Part shown: in pieces, positions 5,841 through 53,136 of the stretch
Position numbering within the stretch: position 1 is the first letter of the stretch
Layout: each line of letters starts with the position of its first letter
Notes under the pieces: model-generated
Database searches by the model: none
The model's input: only the letters and a program-made list of their open reading frames with translations
Told to the model about the DNA's origin: nothing
DNA from: Cellvibrionales bacterium
Lineage (GTDB): Bacteria; Pseudomonadota; Gammaproteobacteria; Pseudomonadales; JAHEIH01
Assembly (NCBI GenBank): GCA_024639455.1
Contig: JAHEIH010000026.1
Location: 304,987-368,986 of the forward strand
Reading direction: 5' to 3'
Length of the DNA: 64,000 nucleotides
Program-made: the position numbers and the translations under genes

Positions 5841-8114
5841 ATGCTGAATTCGCTGCGTCGGATCGTTCAGGAAGTTAACTCGGTTAAAAATTATGCCGAG
5901 GCACTGAAGCTTATCGTCGATCGGGTCGCCGAAGCAATGAATACCGACGTCTGCACGATTTACATGTGGGATGAAAACGCGCAGCGATTTTTCTTTACCG
6001 CGACGCGCGGCCTCAACCAAGATTTATGTGGCAAGCTTAGCCTTGCTCGCGATGAGGGCTTAGTCGGTTTAGTGGGTGTGCGCGAGGAGCCGCTTAACCT
6101 CGAACGGGCAGACGCTCACCCGCGCTTCCACTATATGGAAGGCATTGGCGAGGAGCTCTATAGTGCCTTTTTAGGTGTGCCTATCATTCACCAACGCCGC
6201 GTGCTGGGTGTGCTAGTTGTGCAACAAGCGGCGCGGCGGCGTTTCGATGAGGCGGAAGAGGCGTTTCTGGTGACATTGTCGGCGCAGTTAGCGGGCGTTA
6301 TCGCCCACGCCGAAGCCAGTGGCGCGCTGCACGATGACCCTAATGTCGAGCTTGGTCAGCGCCCCAATGCAAAATTCCAGGGCCTTGGTGCGGTGCGTGG
6401 CACCGCGATCGGTACCGCCGTTGTTGCCTCACCTCAAGCCAACTTAGAAGCTGTTCCAAGTCGTCCGGCGGGAGATATTAATAGCGAGATTGAACGCTAT
6501 AACCGCGCTATCGATGCCGTACGTATGGATATTTGGAAACTGCGTGAAAAGCTCAGTTCTCAATTGCGTCCTGAAGAGCGCGCGCTCTTCGATGTGTACC
6601 TTGGCATGTTGAACGATAATGCCCTTGGTAACGAAGTCTTAGCTCGTATCCGGGGTGGTGAATGGGCACAGGGTGCACTCGCGAGTGTCATTTTGGAGCA
6701 CGTGCGTACCTTCGAACTGATGGAAGATGCCTACCTCCGCGAGCGCGCGGTCGATGTAAAAGACCTCGGTCGACGCGTGCTGTCTTACATGCAGAACGCC
6801 AATCAAGGCGAACAAGAATATCCGGCTAATACCATTCTTGTCGGCGAGGAACTGACCGCCTCGATGCTCGGCGAGGTACCAAAAGACAAGCTGATCGGTC
6901 TGGTGTCGGTGCGTGGCTCGGGTAACTCCCACGTGGCGATTATGGCGCGAGCCATGGGTATTCCCACCGTGATGGGGGTGATGGAGCTTCCCTTTGCCCG
7001 CCTTGAAGGGTGTCAGTTAATTCTCGATGGCTATGCCGGTACTGTTTACGCCAACCCCGGCGATGAGCTGTTGCAGTACTTCTGCGAAATGCTGGAAATC
7101 GAGCGACAGGAGATCGATGCACTGGCCGAGTTGCGCGATCTGCCTTGTGAAACGCTCGATGGGCAACGCATTGAATTGGTCGTGAACACGGGGCTGAACT
7201 CCGATGTGAGTCGCTCGCTCGATCACGGTGCTGAAGGCGTGGGCCTTTACCGTACTGAAATGCCTTTTATGATTCGTGAGCGCTTCCCATCTGAAGAAGA
7301 GCAGCGCCGTATTTACCGCGAACACTTGAAAGCCTTTGCCCCTAACCCTGTGACCATGCGCACCTTGGATATTGGCGGTGACAAGGCTTTGCCCTATTTT
7401 CCGATCGAAGAAGAAAATCCTTTCCTGGGGTGGCGCGGTATTCGCGTTACCCTCGATCACCCGGAAATTTTTCTGGTGCAACTGCGTGCGATGATTCGTG
7501 CCAATGAAGGGCTAGGCAATCTCAAAATCATGCTGCCAATGATCAGTAACGTCTCAGAGCTAGATGACTCACTAGAATTGATTCGTCGCTGTTATGATGA
7601 GCTGATCGATGAAGGCATTGAATCACCCATGCCCAAGTTGGGGGTGATGGTTGAGGTACCGGCGGCGGTTTATCAAGCCAGACAACTCGCGCGTCGAGTA
7701 GATTTTTTATCTGTGGGTAGTAATGATTTGACCCAATACCTGCTGGCGGTCGATCGCAACAACGCCCGCGTGGCGGACTTGTATCATCAATACCACCCGG
7801 CGGTATTGCAGGCGCTAGTGAAGATAGCTCAGGATGCTCGCCTAGAGGGCAAGGAATTGTCTATCTGTGGTGAGTTGGCGGGCGACCCAGGCGCGTCAAT
7901 ATTGCTGGCGGGGATGGGTTATCGCACCTTGTCGATGAGCGCCAACAACTTGCCGCGGGTAAAATCCGTATTGCGCCAAGTCAGTATGGCGCAAGCGAAG
8001 GACATGCTGCACCGAGTACTTGAGATGGACAGTGCGCGCGACGTTCAGCGAAGCGTCGACGGCCTATTGCGAGAGTTAGGCCTCAGCCGTATGTTCCAGA
8101 GCTCAGACGACTAA
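5841..8114 (+). CDS. ptsP: PTS-Ntr enzyme I (phosphoenolpyruvate-protein phosphotransferase PtsP)
   Basis: First phosphotransferase of the nitrogen-related PTS: it takes phosphate from phosphoenolpyruvate and passes it to NPr. The 757 residues comprise an N-terminal GAF sensor domain (about residues 15-160), then the HPr-binding/phosphohistidine domain with the active histidine at residue 364 in GSGNSHVAIMARAMG, then the PEP-utilising barrel (GVGLYRTEMPFM, NPFLGWRGIR, SVGSNDLTQYLLAVDRN, and Cys in LSICGELAGD). The GAF domain separates it from sugar PTS enzyme I. In other bacteria this domain responds to glutamine. NPr and EIIA-Ntr genes are not in this window. Confidence 0.95.
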   Translation: MLNSLRRIVQEVNSVKNYAEALKLIVDRVAEAMNTDVCTIYMWDENAQRFFFTATRGLNQDLCGKLSLARDEGLVGLVGVREEPLNLERADAHPRFHYMEGIGEELYSAFLGVPIIHQRRVLGVLVVQQAARRRFDEAEEAFLVTLSAQLAGVIAHAEASGALHDDPNVELGQRPNAKFQGLGAVRGTAIGTAVVASPQANLEAVPSRPAGDINSEIERYNRAIDAVRMDIWKLREKLSSQLRPEERALFDVYLGMLNDNALGNEVLARIRGGEWAQGALASVILEHVRTFELMEDAYLRERAVDVKDLGRRVLSYMQNANQGEQEYPANTILVGEELTASMLGEVPKDKLIGLVSVRGSGNSHVAIMARAMGIPTVMGVMELPFARLEGCQLILDGYAGTVYANPGDELLQYFCEMLEIERQEIDALAELRDLPCETLDGQRIELVVNTGLNSDVSRSLDHGAEGVGLYRTEMPFMIRERFPSEEEQRRIYREHLKAFAPNPVTMRTLDIGGDKALPYFPIEEENPFLGWRGIRVTLDHPEIFLVQLRAMIRANEGLGNLKIMLPMISNVSELDDSLELIRRCYDELIDEGIESPMPKLGVMVEVPAAVYQARQLARRVDFLSVGSNDLTQYLLAVDRNNARVADLYHQYHPAVLQALVKIAQDARLEGKELSICGELAGDPGASILLAGMGYRTLSMSANNLPRVKSVLRQVSMAQAKDMLHRVLEMDSARDVQRSVDGLLRELGLSRMFQSSDD

Positions 8115-41627: not shown

Positions 41628-43514
41628 ATGAGTAACTATAACGCGGATTCTATTGAGGTATTAACTGGCCTCGACCCGGTGCGCAAGCGTCCTGGTATGT
41701 ATACTGATACCGCCCGCCCCAACCACCTAGCGCAAGAGGTCATCGACAACTCAGTGGATGAGGCGTTAGCTGGCCATGCTAGCCAAGTGAAAATCACCCT
41801 CCACGGCGATGGTTCGTTGAGCGTAGAAGACGACGGTCGCGGTATGCCGGTCGATCTTCACCCAGAAATGAAACGCCCTGGCGTAGAGGTCATTTTGACG
41901 ACCCTGCACGCCGGCGGCAAATTCTCCAACAAGAACTATCAGTTTTCGGGCGGCTTGCACGGGGTTGGTATCTCGGTCGTTAACGCGTTGTCCAAGACTG
42001 TCGATGTGCGCATTAAGCGCGACGGAAAGCTGTTCGAAATCAATTTTGCCGACGGCAACCTAGCGCGAGAGCTGCGCGAGATCGATACTGTCGGGAAACG
42101 CAACACTGGTACCATCGTGCGATTCTCGCCGGATGCACAGTACTTTGACTCGGTGCGTTTCTCGGTGCCTCGCCTCAAGCATGTGCTGCGAGCTAAGGCG
42201 GTGTTATGCCCCGGTTTGAAAGTCATCTATGTCGATGAAGCGACTCCCGACAACAGTGAGGAGTGGTACTTTGAAGATGGTTTGACCGACTACTTGCGCG
42301 CGTCTACCGAGGGTTATGAAACCCTGCCAATTTTGCCCTTTGTTGGAAGTTTTAGCGGCAATAGCGAGGCTGTCGATTGGGCCGTACAGTGGCTGGCTGA
42401 AGGTGGTGAACTGACCCAAGAAAGCTACGTTAACCTGATTCCTACCGCCCAGGGCGGTACCCACGTGAATGGTCTGCGTACCGGTTTGTTGGAGGCAGTG
42501 CGTGAGTACTGTGAATTCCGCAATCTGCTGCCGCGCGGCGTGAAATTGTCACCAGAGGATATCTGGGACAAGTGTTGCTACATCCTGTCAGCGAAATTGG
42601 CTGACCCACAGTTCTCGGGTCAAACCAAGGAGCGACTATCGTCTCGTGAATGCGCTGCGTTTGTGTCTGGTGTAGCGAAAGACGCCTTTTCCCTGTGGCT
42701 AAACCAGCACACCGAAGAGTCGGACAAGCTGGCAGAACTGTTCATTAGCAACGCCCAAACCCGTCTGCGCAAGAACAAAAAGGTAGCGCGTAAGCGCGTT
42801 AGTGCAGGCCCTGCGTTGCCAGGGAAATTGGCTGACTGCTCTGGCGATGACGCCATGCGTGGCGAATTGTTTTTAGTCGAGGGCGACTCGGCGGGCGGGT
42901 CGGCGAAACAAGCGCGCGACCGCGAGTTTCAAGCCATTCTACCGCTGCGCGGAAAGGTGTTGAATAGCTGGGAAGTCGACTCGTCCGAGGTACTGGCGTC
43001 GGCTGAGATTCACAACATCGCGGTAGCGCTGGGGGTGGATCCCGGTTCTGATGATTTGACCGGCCTCCGCTATGGCAAGGTGTGCATCCTGGCGGATGCT
43101 GACTCCGATGGACTGCACATTGCCACCCTACTTTGCGCGCTGTTTGTGCGACACTTCCCAGCACTAGTGAACGCCGGCCATGTCTATGTGGCGATGCCGC
43201 CGCTGTACCGTATCGATATTGGCAAGGATGTTTATTACGCCCTCGATGAAGCAGAAAAGCAGGGCGTGCTAGACCGCATTCAGGCGGAGAACCGCAAGGG
43301 CAAGGTCAATGTTCAACGCTTTAAAGGTCTCGGTGAGATGAACCCCTTGCAGCTGCGAGAGACGGTGATGAACCGCGATACGCGTCGCTTAGTACAACTC
43401 ACCCTTGAGCAGGATGACGGCACCCACCAGATTATGGACATGTTGTTATCTAAAAAGCGTGCCGGGGATCGCAAGAGCTGGCTGGAAACCAAAGGCGATA
43501 TGGCGGAGATCTAA
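41628..43514 (+). CDS. parE: DNA topoisomerase IV subunit B ParE
   Basis: ATPase subunit of topoisomerase IV, which decatenates daughter chromosomes. It has 628 residues, as in E. coli (630). The GHKL ATP site is EVIDNSVDEALAGHASQ, VEDDGRGMPVD and GGLHGVGISVVNALS; the TOPRIM domain has EGDSAGGSAKQARDREFQ and LADADSDGLHIATLL. GyrB is the alternative, but the short length, the tolC-cpdA context and the PVDLHPEMKRPGVEVIL region favour ParE. yqiA, usually just upstream, is absent, and parC is not in the window. A 139-base gap before it holds no clear promoter. Confidence 0.95.
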   Translation: MSNYNADSIEVLTGLDPVRKRPGMYTDTARPNHLAQEVIDNSVDEALAGHASQVKITLHGDGSLSVEDDGRGMPVDLHPEMKRPGVEVILTTLHAGGKFSNKNYQFSGGLHGVGISVVNALSKTVDVRIKRDGKLFEINFADGNLARELREIDTVGKRNTGTIVRFSPDAQYFDSVRFSVPRLKHVLRAKAVLCPGLKVIYVDEATPDNSEEWYFEDGLTDYLRASTEGYETLPILPFVGSFSGNSEAVDWAVQWLAEGGELTQESYVNLIPTAQGGTHVNGLRTGLLEAVREYCEFRNLLPRGVKLSPEDIWDKCCYILSAKLADPQFSGQTKERLSSRECAAFVSGVAKDAFSLWLNQHTEESDKLAELFISNAQTRLRKNKKVARKRVSAGPALPGKLADCSGDDAMRGELFLVEGDSAGGSAKQARDREFQAILPLRGKVLNSWEVDSSEVLASAEIHNIAVALGVDPGSDDLTGLRYGKVCILADADSDGLHIATLLCALFVRHFPALVNAGHVYVAMPPLYRIDIGKDVYYALDEAEKQGVLDRIQAENRKGKVNVQRFKGLGEMNPLQLRETVMNRDTRRLVQLTLEQDDGTHQIMDMLLSKKRAGDRKSWLETKGDMAEI

Positions 43515-43515
43515 G

Positions 43516-45492
43516 GTGCGACAGTGGTGGCGTTGTTACATTGCCGCGAGTTTAGTGGCTATTTTGGGTTGTTCTGAAAGTAATCCGCCGGTGCCGGCAG
43601 ATCAGCTCCCGGTGGACCACTTGCCAGCGCAGCTTGAACCACTGCGTTACAACATTGAGCTCTATTTACAGCCGCGCAAAGACGAATTCACAGGCCATGT
43701 TGAGATCGATGTTGATGTTAAGCAGCCGTTTGATCGTTTGTGGCTTCACGGCGCGCAATTAAAAGTCGGTACCGTGCAGGTCGTCGGCGGGACTATCGCC
43801 ACCGGCGAATGGCGCCAACACACGGCTGAGGGCTTGGCGAGTATTGTGTTCGACCGCACGGTGCCGGTCGGTCGCAGCAAAATCATTGTTGATTATTCTG
43901 CCTCCTACAGCCCCGGTTTGAAGGGCTTTATCCGCAGCCGCGATAAGGCGGCCTATGTCGCCAGTATGGCAGACGGCGGTGCCCGCTATGTGTTGCCAAG
44001 CTTTGATGAGCCGCGTTATCGCGCGCTGATGACGCTCTCGATTGATATTCCCAGTCAATTCGAGGCTGTCGCCAGTACCAGCGTAATCAATCGCACCGAA
44101 CTTGAAAACCAGCGCCGTGTGGTGCGTTTTGCCGAAACCCCTGCACTGCCATTGGGTGCCATGGGATGGCTTGTTTCGAGCTTGGAACCCCCTCAACAAG
44201 CACGCTCTGACCACACGGTGGTGAGCGGTTATGGTCTAGATCCCTCACCCTGGCTGCTGGGTGTAGAGGCGTTAGAGCTGCGTAGCGAACACCCCTATCC
44301 CATGCCCAAATTGGATGTAGTGGCTCTGCCCAATGTGAGCGAAGTGATTAACGCTGTTGGCTTGATCATCAATCCGGAATCCGCACTAGAGATACAAGCA
44401 GAGCGTTTGGCGCAGCATTGGCTAGATCACGCGGCCCACTACCGCAGTTGGCAGGCGCAGTGCGTGGCACGTGGCGTCGCCAAATGGGCCGGCCTCGATG
44501 CCTACCGCAACGCGAATATGATCCAACAGTCGGTACAAGACAGCCTCTGGCAGCGCGCGCTGGCGCTCGATACCAACCCACTGGGTACGATGTGTTGGGA
44601 TGTGCCTTCAGACAAGGTGCTCCCTCTGGTCGATGTAGAAGATCATGCCTTAGTGGCGGCGGCGCTATTGACCATGGAAGACGCCAAGGGGGCCGATGTC
44701 ATCGCCGAACAAGTGTGGCGTGACTGGCTGACCGGGCGCGATACTCCCCGCGGCGCTCAGGATTTCTTGCCGGCGCTGTATCAGCGTATTTATACCGTTT
44801 TGCAGGATGGCCGCTTAATGCCAAGCGGTTGTAAAGATGACTGTCGCTACCGAGTAACCACCTCGCAACCCGAGTTGAGTGTCGCAGAGGCCTTGCAAAA
44901 ACCGGCGAGCGTATCCCTTTCGCAATGGCGCGATTTGGCCCGTGAACCACGCATTGTCAATCTATTCGAACGCATCGTCAGTGCCACTCAGGAAACCCCC
45001 ATGCTTGAACTTAAGGCGCGCTACGGTGATGCCTGGGTGGTGGCCATGGGCGGTGCTATGGCACGTGATTTCGACCGCTGGAGCGGATGGTTGCGCCAGC
45101 AAAGTGCTGAAGCTAGCACCTCTGAAGAGCGTCTCATGGCCTTGTTTGCACTCGCCGAGTCGACCGATACCCGCGTGGTGACGTGGTTCCAGCAATTGTT
45201 CTTAAACCGTGCACTATCGCCCGACGATAGCGACGCCCTGTTTGCTCGCTTGATGCATGCACCGCAGTCAGATAGTCAATTGCAATGGTTGTCGACTAAC
45301 CGCGACAAGGTCATGCGCAAACTGTCGCCCGCGCAGCGTGTGCGCTGGTTAGATGCTCTAGGTGCTCTCTGTGGGCAAGCTCAAGCCGCTATCGTGCGGG
45401 ACGCGATGAGCCCCGTGGCGGCGATGATTTTCCGTGGTGAAGCCCGTTTGGAGAGAGCATTAGCACGCATTGAAGCCTGCGCAACGCGCTAG
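43516..45492 (+). CDS. Lipoprotein with M1-aminopeptidase fold lacking all zinc-site residues (pseudoenzyme)
   Basis: A 658-residue protein from a GTG one base after parE. A lipobox ending LVAILGC (Cys19) marks it as a lipoprotein. The N-terminal M1 domain is recognisable: ARYVLPSFDEPRYRALMTLS matches the M1 stretch with PxFDEP. Yet the catalytic motifs are replaced. GAMEN is EVINA (about residues 276-280, within YPMPKLDVVALPN...VGLI), HELAHQW reads ERLAQHW (about 296-302), and the third zinc ligand in WLNEGFA reads WQAQCVA (about 312-318). The reading frame is long and clean and the C-terminal helical domain is kept, so this looks like a maintained non-enzymatic binding protein rather than decay. 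Function unknown. Confidence 0.8.
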   Translation: MRQWWRCYIAASLVAILGCSESNPPVPADQLPVDHLPAQLEPLRYNIELYLQPRKDEFTGHVEIDVDVKQPFDRLWLHGAQLKVGTVQVVGGTIATGEWRQHTAEGLASIVFDRTVPVGRSKIIVDYSASYSPGLKGFIRSRDKAAYVASMADGGARYVLPSFDEPRYRALMTLSIDIPSQFEAVASTSVINRTELENQRRVVRFAETPALPLGAMGWLVSSLEPPQQARSDHTVVSGYGLDPSPWLLGVEALELRSEHPYPMPKLDVVALPNVSEVINAVGLIINPESALEIQAERLAQHWLDHAAHYRSWQAQCVARGVAKWAGLDAYRNANMIQQSVQDSLWQRALALDTNPLGTMCWDVPSDKVLPLVDVEDHALVAAALLTMEDAKGADVIAEQVWRDWLTGRDTPRGAQDFLPALYQRIYTVLQDGRLMPSGCKDDCRYRVTTSQPELSVAEALQKPASVSLSQWRDLAREPRIVNLFERIVSATQETPMLELKARYGDAWVVAMGGAMARDFDRWSGWLRQQSAEASTSEERLMALFALAESTDTRVVTWFQQLFLNRALSPDDSDALFARLMHAPQSDSQLQWLSTNRDKVMRKLSPAQRVRWLDALGALCGQAQAAIVRDAMSPVAAMIFRGEARLERALARIEACATR

Positions 45493-45560
45493 TTTTTAAT
45501 ATTTATCAAAGCCCATTGTTCATTTCCGTGCTACATATTAATTATGAGTACGGAGGTTCT

Positions 45561-46004
45561 ATGAGTAAGAAACACATGCCCACTATGGTGTCGGTGATGA
45601 CGCCGTTCCCACACTTCATTGCACCCAATGCCAGCCTTGGAGAGGCCAAACGATTGATGGATGAATTTGCCATTCACCATCTGCCCGTGGTCGATGATTT
45701 TGATATCGTTGGCCTTATCTCTCATCGCGATTTGCTGCGGGCGGTCAGCCTGGGTGAGCGCTTGAGTCATCAACCCGATATCGTCGTGTCGGATCTGGTG
45801 AATCATCGCCCATACATGGTGGATGTGGGAGATCCGCTGGTGCCGGTGCTGCAATCGATGATCGACAATCGAATAGGTTCGGTAATTGTGCTAAAGGATG
45901 GTGAGTTGGTAGGTATATTTACCTCCACCGATGCCATGCGCCATTTTGCCGGCTTTTTAGAGGAGGCATTTCCCGCCAACCCCGACGGCGATGATGCCGC
46001 TTAG
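45561..46004 (+). CDS. Tandem CBS-domain protein
   Basis: A 147-residue protein consisting almost entirely of two CBS motifs (about residues 10-65 with HHLPVVDDFDIVGLISHRDL, and 80-135 with IGSVIVLKDGELVGIFTSTD), a fold that binds adenine nucleotides. No effector domain is attached, so it probably acts by binding a partner or as a nucleotide sensor. A strong ribosome site (ACGGAGG) precedes the ATG at 45561; an upstream in-frame ATG at 45516 is less likely. The arylsulfatase gene follows after a weak hairpin. Confidence 0.85.
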   Translation: MSKKHMPTMVSVMTPFPHFIAPNASLGEAKRLMDEFAIHHLPVVDDFDIVGLISHRDLLRAVSLGERLSHQPDIVVSDLVNHRPYMVDVGDPLVPVLQSMIDNRIGSVIVLKDGELVGIFTSTDAMRHFAGFLEEAFPANPDGDDAA

Positions 46005-46030
46005 CCGCAGTTGCGGTAAATTGTCTTTTT
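46005..46030 (+). terminator. Weak candidate terminator after the CBS gene
   Basis: CCGCA (46005-46009), loop GT, TGCGG (46012-46016), then TAAATTGTCTTTTTA. The stem is only five pairs and the T-run is displaced. Confidence 0.3.
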
Positions 46031-46051
46031 ATTTTTAAAGATGAATTTACC

Positions 46052-47581
46052 ATGAAAACGATCATTCGCACCTTGTCATTGGCATTGGTTGCACTCACCA
46101 GCCTCGCGCAAGCCAACGATAAACCCAACATCCTCGTGATCATGGGTGATGATATAGGTTTAACGAATATAAGTTATGTCAGTCACGGCATGATGGGTTA
46201 CCAGACACCTAATATCGATAGCATCGCCGAAGAAGGTTTGTTCATGACCGATTACTACGGCGAGCAGAGCTGCACCGCCGGACGCTCGGCGTTTATTTTA
46301 GGACAAAGTCCTGTGCGAACGGGTTTGACCAAAGTGGGTTTGCCCGGCGCCCCCCAGGGTATTCATCCCGATGATCCGACAATTGCGGAACTATTGAAAC
46401 CGCTCGGCTATACGTCTGGCCAGTTTGGTAAAAACCACCTCGGTGACAGCGACCAGTTCCTGCCCACCAACCACGGTTTTGATGAGTTCTTTGGCAATCT
46501 CTACCACCTCAATGCAGAAGAAGAGCCAGAACGTGAACACTATTACAACGATCCCGCCATGCGCCAAATGTTCGCCCCGCGCGGCATCATTCGCTCTTAC
46601 GCCGACGGTCGTATCGAGGACCTTGGGCCTTTAACTAAGAAGCGCATGGAGCGCGTTGATGAGGACTTCCTCGCCGCTAGCCTTAACTTCATTGAGCGTG
46701 CCCACGCCGATGGAAAGCCGTTTTTTGTATGGTTTAACGCTACCCGCATGCATTACTTTACCCACGCCCCGGAAGAATACCGTGGCCGCTCCGGTTTGAA
46801 CGAATATGTCGATGGTATGCTGCAACACGATGATCATGTAGGCACCCTTTTGGGAAAGCTAGATGAACTGAGCATTGCCGATAACACTATTGTGATTTAC
46901 ACCACCGATAACGGTCCCCATTTGAATATGTGGCCCGACGCAGCGATGACGCCCTTCCGCGGTGAGAAAAACACCAATTGGGAAGGCGGCTACCGCGTGC
47001 CTATGTTTGTGCGTTGGCCTGCCAAGATTGCTGCCGGTAGTAAATCTTCTCAAGTTATGTCGCATATGGATTGGTTCCCCACCTTGATGGCTGCCGCCGG
47101 TGTGGATGATATTGTTGGCAAGTTAAAGCAAGGCTATCGCGCCGGTGATAAAACGTATCGTGTGCACCTCGATGGCTACGATTTTTTGTCTCACCTCACC
47201 GGACAGTCAGAGCAAGGTCCGCGGCATGAGTTCTTATATTGGAGCGACGACGGTGATTTGGTTGGTCTGCGCTACGCTGGTCGTTGGAAGTTAGTGTTCG
47301 CAGAGCAGCGCGCATCTAGATTGCATGTATGGCGCGAGCCTTTCGTAAAGTTACGTGCCCCCTTGTTATTCGACCTTCGTACCGATCCATTTGAACGTGC
47401 ACAGCATGACTCAAATAGCTACGAGCGCTGGTTTGCCGAGCACTCTTACCTGATATACCCCGCCAAACCCATTGTCGGTAAATTTGTGATGAGCATGCAG
47501 CAGTTCCCACCGCGCATGAAGCCGGCCACGTTCAACGTCGATGAAATTACCGAGATGATGTATCGAGGGATGAAGCAGTAA
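46052..47581 (+). CDS. Exported arylsulfatase (formylglycine-type sulfatase)
   Basis: A 509-residue exported sulfatase with a signal peptide (MKTIIRTLSLALVALTSLAQ, cleaved after Ala21). It releases sulfate from an organic sulfate ester. Metal ligands are in ILVIMGDDIGLTNI (Asp33-Asp34) and TTDNGPHLNMWP. The residue converted to formylglycine is Cys74 in EQSCTAGRSAFI; the usual CxPSR core is CTAGR here, a variant seen in one sulfatase subgroup. GKNHLGD and the HMDWFPTLMAAAG region are typical. Substrate is unknown (algal polysaccharide sulfate is plausible in a marine cell). No maturation enzyme (FGE or anSME) is encoded nearby. Confidence 0.92.
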   Translation: MKTIIRTLSLALVALTSLAQANDKPNILVIMGDDIGLTNISYVSHGMMGYQTPNIDSIAEEGLFMTDYYGEQSCTAGRSAFILGQSPVRTGLTKVGLPGAPQGIHPDDPTIAELLKPLGYTSGQFGKNHLGDSDQFLPTNHGFDEFFGNLYHLNAEEEPEREHYYNDPAMRQMFAPRGIIRSYADGRIEDLGPLTKKRMERVDEDFLAASLNFIERAHADGKPFFVWFNATRMHYFTHAPEEYRGRSGLNEYVDGMLQHDDHVGTLLGKLDELSIADNTIVIYTTDNGPHLNMWPDAAMTPFRGEKNTNWEGGYRVPMFVRWPAKIAAGSKSSQVMSHMDWFPTLMAAAGVDDIVGKLKQGYRAGDKTYRVHLDGYDFLSHLTGQSEQGPRHEFLYWSDDGDLVGLRYAGRWKLVFAEQRASRLHVWREPFVKLRAPLLFDLRTDPFERAQHDSNSYERWFAEHSYLIYPAKPIVGKFVMSMQQFPPRMKPATFNVDEITEMMYRGMKQ

Positions 47582-51376: not shown

Positions 51377-51390
51377 TTAAGGAGGTATTG

Positions 51391-53136
51391 ATGCGGAGTG
51401 TACTGGTTTGGCTGTTGAGCTTTTTCTGTAGTGCGGCGCTCGCCGCCGACCTGAACACTCTCATTGAGCGCGATTGGCAGCTGCTGATGACGCGCGATCC
51501 AATGTTTGCCACCTCCAGCGGTATTCGCGATTACGACCACCTGCTACCCAATGCCAGTTTTGAGGCTTTACAGCGGCAGCGCGCGGAAGACGCCGTGCTA
51601 CTACAAGAGATTGAAACGCTCGATCACCAGGCGTTAACGGGCCAAGCAGCGATTAACCATGCCCTGTTACGCTGGCGCGTGGCGGGTCGTATCGCGGCCT
51701 TTGATAGTGGTGAGTTCGCGCTACCTTTCAATACTTTTTCCTCGTTTTTCAATGATCCCGTCATGTCGATGGCAGATACCACCTTGCGTAGCGAGGCGGA
51801 CTATAGAGCCTTGCAGCAGCGGCTAATGGCGATGCCCGGCTATTTTGCCCAGCACGCCGACAATATGCGCCGCGGTATAAAAGAGGGGCGGGTCATGCCC
51901 CGCGTGGTTGTGGCGAAGGTGTTGCAAACGATTGAGGCGCAAGTGTACGCCACACCGCAGAGCAATCCCCTGTGGCAGCGCGTGCGCAACTACCCTGAAT
52001 CGTTTTCTAACAGTCTCCAGGCCACGCTCGATGAAGGGCTCAGTGCAGCGCTCGACCAAGGATTTAAACGCGCCTTTAGCGAATTAGCCGACTTTATGCG
52101 CGACGAATATTTACCCGCCAGCCGAGACAGTGTGGGGGCTTCCGCCATGACAAATGGCAACGCCTACTACCGCGCACAAATCCTGCAATACGTCACCAGT
52201 GACAAATACAGCGCCGATGATATTCATGCCATTGGCTTGCGCGAAGTCGCGCGAATCCGTGCCGACATGGAAGAGATAAAACAACAGGCGGGCTTTGACG
52301 GTGACCTAGACGAATTTATTGCCTTCTTGCGCAGCGACCCGCAGTTTTACGCCACTAGCGCACGCGGCCTATTGCAGGAAGCGGCCTTCGTGGCCAAACG
52401 GATCGACTACGTGCTGCCCAAGTATTTTGGCACCTTGCCGCGTACGCCCTACGGCGTAGAGCCCGTACCGGATGAAATTGCGCCGGCCTACTCCACCGCG
52501 GCCTATTGGCCCGCGCCTTTGGGAGGCGATCGCGGCGGTGCCTATATGGTGAATACCTACCGCCTCGACCAGCGGCCACTCTATGAATTGCCTGCCTTAA
52601 CGTTGCACGAGGCGGTTCCTGGCCACCATTTGCAAGGTGCCTTGGCCCAGGAGTTAGAAGGTGTCCCAGAATTTCGACGCCAGTTGTATTTCAGTGCCTT
52701 TGGCGAAGGCTGGGCGCTGTATACCGAAAAGTTGGGGGTGGAAATGGGCATCTATCAAAATGCCTACGAGCACTTCGGTCGCCTCAGTTACGAGATGTGG
52801 CGCGCGGCACGATTGGTGATCGATACCGGCATTCACACCCAGGGTTGGCGTCGTCAACAGGGTATCGACTACCTGGCTAAAAACACCTCGCTGTCGATGG
52901 AAAACGTGGTGTCAGAAGTCGACCGCTATATTTCATGGCCTGGACAGGCACTCAGCTATAAATTGGGTGAGCTGTTAATTTGGGAATTGCGCCGAGAAGC
53001 CGAGGCGGCGCTGGGTGAGCGCTTTGATCTGCGTGAATTTCACGACGCCGTGCTGCGCAATGGCGCCCTGCCCATGGCTCTTTTGACCGAGCAAGTGCGT
53101 GTTTATATCGCTCAGGTTAAGGATGAGCGTACATGA
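51391..53136 (+). CDS. Exported DUF885 protein, putative metallohydrolase
   Basis: A 581-residue exported protein of the DUF885 family. The signal peptide (VLVWLLSFFCSAALA) precedes an alpha-helical region with the zinc-type motif LHEAVPGHHLQGAL (about residues 408-421), with a further Glu in FGEGWALYTEKLG. These fit gluzincin-like peptidases, and the family is usually annotated as a putative peptidase; biochemical data are few. An AAGGAGG ribosome site precedes the ATG at 51391. It lies 14 bases after the aminotransferase gene and overlaps the thioesterase gene (ATGA at 53133). Confidence 0.85.
   Translation: MRSVLVWLLSFFCSAALAADLNTLIERDWQLLMTRDPMFATSSGIRDYDHLLPNASFEALQRQRAEDAVLLQEIETLDHQALTGQAAINHALLRWRVAGRIAAFDSGEFALPFNTFSSFFNDPVMSMADTTLRSEADYRALQQRLMAMPGYFAQHADNMRRGIKEGRVMPRVVVAKVLQTIEAQVYATPQSNPLWQRVRNYPESFSNSLQATLDEGLSAALDQGFKRAFSELADFMRDEYLPASRDSVGASAMTNGNAYYRAQILQYVTSDKYSADDIHAIGLREVARIRADMEEIKQQAGFDGDLDEFIAFLRSDPQFYATSARGLLQEAAFVAKRIDYVLPKYFGTLPRTPYGVEPVPDEIAPAYSTAAYWPAPLGGDRGGAYMVNTYRLDQRPLYELPALTLHEAVPGHHLQGALAQELEGVPEFRRQLYFSAFGEGWALYTEKLGVEMGIYQNAYEHFGRLSYEMWRAARLVIDTGIHTQGWRRQQGIDYLAKNTSLSMENVVSEVDRYISWPGQALSYKLGELLIWELRREAEAALGERFDLREFHDAVLRNGALPMALLTEQVRVYIAQVKDERT

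Follow-up and report, generated by a model that had tools for sequence, protein, structure and literature searches.

TAF2 of TFIID, a nuclear transcription factor subunit in an unrelated setting, is an M1-derived scaffold without a peptidase role, and Tma108 of yeast is a cytosolic protein. Tma108 is an M1 homologue found on nascent chains, for which a non-enzymatic peptide-holding role has been proposed, and it keeps all active-site residues but one (PMC11266112, excerpt). It sets a precedent for chain holding by an M1 homologue, and a similar role is suggested below for a bacterial protein, although Tma108 is eukaryotic and the bacterial protein keeps none of the active-site residues. The excerpt of this source names Tma108 as its one M1 pseudopeptidase and gives no bacterial M1 case, and a literature search for a bacterial M1 pseudopeptidase found no paper. 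The same source describes the alpha subunit of the mitochondrial processing peptidase (MPP; M16B) as an inactive peptidase homologue kept for substrate binding; that subunit differs from our protein in belonging to another family and in needing an active subunit, and in prokaryotic relatives a single operon of two genes encodes both (PMC11266112). In ERAP1, according to the sections available, domain IV is a bowl-shaped HEAT-repeat domain that packs on domain II and binds the C-termini of peptides (PMC8421391). The ERAP-like M1 lipoproteins of Gammaproteobacteria (PF17900, PF01433 and PF11838, ~900 aa; e.g., L049:8075-10810) are collinear with our protein over its full length and resemble it in domain I, the PYP.KLD anchor, the W-x7-G-x-A-x-W motif and probably domain IV, with a lipobox-like N-terminus in those read. 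However, HExxH and the ligand Glu are kept in 20/20 of the full-length proteins aligned, ~250 more residues are present, and both proteins scanned score with PF01433.

The window (the whole stretch of 64,000 nucleotides analysed) carries the gene of this protein as an open frame, correctly delimited in the initial annotation (Table 1). The stretches PSFDEPRYRA and YPMPKLDVVA pointed out there are present, and the M1 N-terminal domain was recovered by PF17900 with 78.7 bits against a cut-off of 25.8 (64.6 bits in the orthologue). In hhalign (local mode), the window protein and its orthologue matched 20 full-length M1 homologues with a probability of 100 over 639 columns (E 2.4e-45, from one comparison), and, as judged from this alignment, the window protein is a homologue of ERAP-like M1 aminopeptidases over its entire length. 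NCBIfam gave a weak aminopeptidase N match over the N-terminal stretch (24.2 bits vs a cut-off of 591), and the best phmmer matches among solved structures were the puromycin-sensitive aminopeptidase and other M1 enzymes, in the N-terminal half. ERAP1_C (PF11838) was found in the window protein with E 2.5e-5 and 24.3 bits, below the Pfam cut-off of 38.2; the Pfam scan of the orthologue did not list PF11838, HEAT_2 alone being matched there, weakly. The C-terminal profile gave weak matches in five full-length M1 frames, which agrees with the ERAP2 match described below.

Table 1. Features of the pseudoenzyme gene, its neighbours and its orthologue (window positions unless a locus is given).
Feature	Position	Strand	Details
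parE	41628..43514	+	Pfam; directly upstream neighbour; same order in L005/L032
Pseudo-aminopeptidase lipoprotein, M1-type	43516..45492	+	GTG start; 658 codons/aa; open frame
Signal peptide and lipobox ILG/C19	43516..43572	+	+2 = Ser; read by eye from the sequence
Domain I, M1 N-terminal domain	43639..44148	+	residues 42-211; PF17900 E 7.7e-22; 58-60% identity to orthologue
Domain II remnant	44152..44505	+	residues 213-330; PYP anchor and W-x7-G-x-A-x-W kept; catalytic residues gone
EVINA at GAMEN/GATEL position	44341..44355	+	residues 276-280; exopeptidase Glu replaced by Asn279; profile-profile alignment
ERLAQ at HExxH position	44401..44415	+	residues 296-300; template HEIAH; profile-profile alignment
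Arg319 at third zinc-ligand Glu position	44470..44472	+	profile-profile alignment
Domain IV, ERAP1_C-like alpha-solenoid	44803..45489	+	residues 430-658; AlphaFold2 and ERAP2 match
Two-CBS-domain protein	45561..46004	+	Pfam; next gene in both carrier genomes
Sulfatase	46052..47581	+	Pfam; second gene downstream in both carrier genomes
Orthologue	L032:2871-4829		652 aa; ATG start; 45% identity

Structure prediction points the same way for the C-terminal part. AlphaFold2 was run from two-row alignments on the full protein (mean pLDDT 47.7) and on the N-terminal half (39.4, a useless model); in the full model, pLDDT reaches 75-92 in blocks within residues 459-618 and 58-73 after residue 618. VIA-align superposed residues 430-657 on domain IV of ERAP2 with Z 14.4 over 201 residues at 3.8 Å, a score that helical repeats come near by chance, and all 50 matches listed were M1 proteins, including the ERAP1 peptide-binding domain 3rjo (Z 12.2). 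All 50 matches listed by Foldseek were likewise M1 peptidases, but over ~100 columns and with a TM of ~0.14.

The catalytic domain is altered far beyond its motifs. PF01433 had no match up to E 1 in the window protein or the orthologue, compared with 161 bits in a full-length homologue. The profile-profile map leaves 252 residues of the template unpaired with the window protein. The M1 scaffold, described as clear in the initial annotation, is so in domain I and in the end-to-end homology, but not in the catalytic domain. Residues 331-500 share 13-21% identity with the homologues and, because they align weakly, the exact deleted stretches are unsure. As read from the alignments, domain II and the part behind it have collapsed, leaving a protein ~250 residues shorter, which goes beyond point mutation; since AlphaFold2 is poor outside domain IV, this collapse rests on sequence alignment, and no clamp is visible in the models.

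Within the domain II remnant (28-37% identity to the orthologue, depending on the bounds chosen), EVINA in place of GAMEN and ERLAQ in place of HELAH stand at the aligned positions, as had been proposed, and the spacing of 18 residues from HExxH to the ligand Glu is exact in the window protein. Ala295, beside the HExxH position, and Ala299, inside it, are still present; the register of the zinc site is firm because this spacing, the two alanines and the W-x7-G-x-A-x-W motif round the third ligand are kept. The third ligand, initially read as a change from Glu to Gln, proved to be Arg319. The segment of the catalytic Tyr lies opposite an alignment gap, in a weakly aligned region. The 20 comparators divide into ten with GATEL and ten with xAMEN (eight GAMEN, one AAMEN, one SAMEN); as half of these site-intact proteins read GATEL, a changed GAMEN alone is no sign of inactivity. 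GATEL with HExxH and the ligand Glu intact is found in the M1 frames of L049-L055, L057, L058 and L063, and recognition of the substrate N-terminus may be different in GATEL M1 enzymes.

The orthologue (L005 and L032 being the same locus, contig JALRIU010000097.1) comes from the MAG Pseudomonadales bacterium isolate QJ.27, which is 75% complete. It reads ESINA at the GAMEN position, QHMAS at the HExxH position and Thr at the third ligand, and the position of the exopeptidase Glu is Asn in both proteins. By these alignments, the loss of the site is common to the two, with replacing residues that differ, bar the Asn279 position. Both frames are open, and the gaps between them are in-frame only; decay in relatives, which the initial annotation had asked after, was looked for, and the orthologue has neither frameshift nor stop. 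Its lipobox, LTA/C, is canonical and is followed by Ala. That of the window protein, initially called intact, is present, but its -2 residue, Leu, lies outside the usual set. Following the rule known from E. coli, Ser or Ala at +2, after the lipid-bearing Cys, suggests the outer membrane. With the lipobox and its +2 Ser or Ala, the pseudoenzyme is probably lipid-anchored in the outer membrane, facing the periplasm.

A single base separates the parE stop from the GTG of the pseudoenzyme gene, and the order cpdA, parE, pseudoenzyme, CBS protein, sulfatase and AsnC-type regulator is common to both genomes (some names by reading). Between 45561 and 51376 of the window, the order kept in both comprises the CBS protein, the sulfatase, the AsnC-type regulator, an isocitrate-dehydrogenase-like protein (585 aa) and an aminotransferase (by reading). 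A DUF885 protein (51379-53133; PF05960, E 1.2e-164) follows ~6 kb behind the pseudoenzyme gene; it has a HEAVPGHH stretch and is zinc-peptidase-like by reading. A scan of 43300-46200 gave no sigma-70-like promoter site and four terminator-like sites, vs 2.9 expected.

The fixed place behind parE, claimed initially, stands for the window's own family, in which 2/2 genomes examined carry the gene there, but not beyond: no M1-like gene was found behind parE in 20 genomes from 18 other families (tblastn 1e-4; 20 of the 54 other genomes with parE, G006/G049 and G001/G046 sharing families), which rules out the linkage as a trait of the order. The gene behind parE varies across these 20 genomes and is parC-like (by reading) in four; parC is not directly behind parE at the window locus. 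A small CBS-domain protein lies behind parE in another family too (L109, match ~6751-7086). Conversely, no parE match was found in 20 M1 loci of 15-18 kb each, and in two families chosen by parE identity the pseudoenzyme gene was present in 0/4 and 0/1 genomes. A search of contigs with two patterns, which can miss distant relatives, found one locus, the known orthologue.

Wider searches also returned a narrow spread. The window protein as query matched 26/293 genomes of the order; besides the two carriers, all matches were frames of 875-1012 aa, matched in the N-terminal part with the exception of one row. The C-terminal profile matched 10/390 genomes, strongly in the two carriers only, one weak row lying in a stretch with stops, and the class search matched 7/369, six with frames 869-973 aa long and the seventh being the genome of the window itself. 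Of the 150 PF17900 matches listed, from 184 genomes of the class, 144 lie within 2.5 kb of a listed PF01433; of the remaining six, five run into a contig end within 0.6 kb, and the last is the pseudoenzyme gene. Being the sole uncut PF17900 without a nearby PF01433 among the matches listed, it indicates that such proteins are rare in the sample.

The comparators were drawn from 30 genomes with full-length matches (24 from the order and six from the class search), of which 20 were aligned and G107, G112, G139, G034, G099, G158, G285, G127, G643 and G738 were left out; the motifs are intact in the M1 proteins of G099 and G158. In the trees, a long branch of 1.4-1.5 substitutions per site leads to the pseudoenzyme pair, which falls beside the GATEL clade in the midpoint-rooted tree of domains I and IV, but not in the tree of the N-terminal part. 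The window's genome has three PF01433 genes, a PepN-like one, a 638-aa LTA4H-like one (names by judgement) and an 842-aa frame, and no site-intact ERAP-like parent copy was seen among them; a resident parent copy may have been lost. In another family, L062 carries a sulfatase (L062:1410-2966) 55% identical to that of the window, and a full-length M1 gene of the ERAP-like type (L062:8524-11277) lies ~5.6 kb away from it; of four L062 frames scanned with Pfam, the M1 frame alone had matches.

The conservation within the pair is inverted relative to active enzymes. The two proteins share an identity of 0.37 in the old catalytic core, 0.26 in the stretch from the core to domain IV, 0.60 in domain I and 0.59 in domain IV (58-59% from residue 500 on). 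As a control, 20 site-intact homologues were compared in pairs: the similarity of the catalytic core exceeds that of domain I in 190/190 pairs, and that of the wider catalytic domain does so in 166/190. Round HExxH, two site-intact M1 orthologue pairs from the two carrier genomes reach identities of 97% and 91%, the latter over a partial frame. This inversion against the site-intact pairs indicates that the old core is without special constraint and that both outer domains are kept. The ratio of domain IV to domain I identity is 0.98 in the pseudoenzyme pair and at least 1 in 6/190 active pairs; measured against domain I, the conservation of domain IV does not surpass that seen in the best active pairs.

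That domains I and IV are kept as domain II decays suggests a client holder on a tether. Our preferred reading, which we consider reasonably probable, is a non-catalytic ERAP-like M1 descendant, tethered to the envelope, that would hold peptide or protein clients without cutting them; the holding and the tether are what we infer. More tentative, and somewhat short of an even chance, is the fuller account that in a Pseudomonadales lineage the catalytic domain collapsed between kept clamp domains to give a periplasmic, non-catalytic holder of peptides or proteins with a binding function of its own. The ancestor would have been a membrane-anchored ERAP-like M1 aminopeptidase lipoprotein. In sequence and model, the aligned places have lost the zinc ligands, the general-base Glu and the exopeptidase Glu, nothing now aligns to the catalytic Tyr, and domain II has shrunk while domain I and the domain IV solenoid stayed under selection; the two outer domains would act as a clamp on peptide or protein clients with no cleavage. 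Since peptide C-termini bind domain IV in ERAP1, peptide holding would be the likeliest inherited activity. By this analogy, the holding of peptides or proteins has probably taken the place of cleavage in the pseudoenzyme, and the outer-membrane peptide-binding protein proposed initially is plausible.

The conserved outer domains could equally be protein interfaces. The protein may be a pseudo-subunit or scaffold that pairs with an active enzyme, in the way that the inactive MPP alpha subunit pairs with beta, or with another envelope protein, peptide binding playing no part, which we regard as unlikely but worth weighing. Each genome has another lipoprotein-like M1 frame, 638 aa long in one and 643 aa in the other, in which GGMEN and HELAH are intact, and MPP-type pairs, prokaryotic ones too, are described for M16 in the excerpt of PMC11266112. 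In both genomes, however, the site-intact M1 genes are found at other loci, and no peptidase gene is directly beside the pseudoenzyme gene, the DUF885 protein of the window being ~6 kb downstream.

A slowly decaying gene, its function gone or nearly so and its frame open by chance, is very improbable. Eight genes, the pseudoenzyme gene and seven neighbours, were compared between the two carrier genomes; the synonymous distance had no finite estimate in seven of them and was 2.2 in cpdA. With a pN/pS of 0.50, the pseudoenzyme gene ranks first among the eight, its neighbours lying at 0.09-0.34, and by residues the ratio is 0.37 (20-212), 0.76 (213-300, with pN 0.52 vs pS 0.69), 0.58 (300-420), 0.66 (420-500) and 0.37 (500-658); as synonymous sites are saturated, these values are not dN/dS. 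Together with the 28-36% identity of residues 213-500 to the orthologue, the high ratio indicates that part of the gene is under weak constraint, and this, with the finding of two carriers, is what decay has in its favour. Against it, both lineages have an open frame, with gaps that are all in-frame, although pS is saturated; a neutral simulation (substitutions only) kept the frame open in 0/500 runs per distance at three distances, starting from 0.2 per site; and identity is 58-59% in both outer domains. The open frame in both lineages and the outer-domain conservation rule out a pseudogene, and on this comparison of two genomes the gene is a retained pseudoenzyme, as the initial annotation had proposed from the lost site and the intact frame.

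Six Cys besides the lipid Cys are common to both proteins (residues 316, 360, 439, 443, 619 and 655), so up to three disulfides are possible. That the protein still catalyses, through an active site that has moved or is of another kind, is hardly credible: the five His and six Cys in common and a domain II without a usable model leave it some room, but an intact zinc site elsewhere, the other alternative raised initially, found no support, neither protein having HExxH and the two sharing no HE-type or H-x3-H pair (the window protein's single H-x3-H, HWLDH, is absent in the orthologue), while few parts are less conserved than the old catalytic core and the Cys are possibly in disulfides.

The client-holding reading is preferred for what, by sequence comparison, is a real, retained bacterial M1 pseudoenzyme of narrow spread. 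With its site gone and its conservation gradient inverted, it lets one ask which M1 domains carry post-catalytic function.
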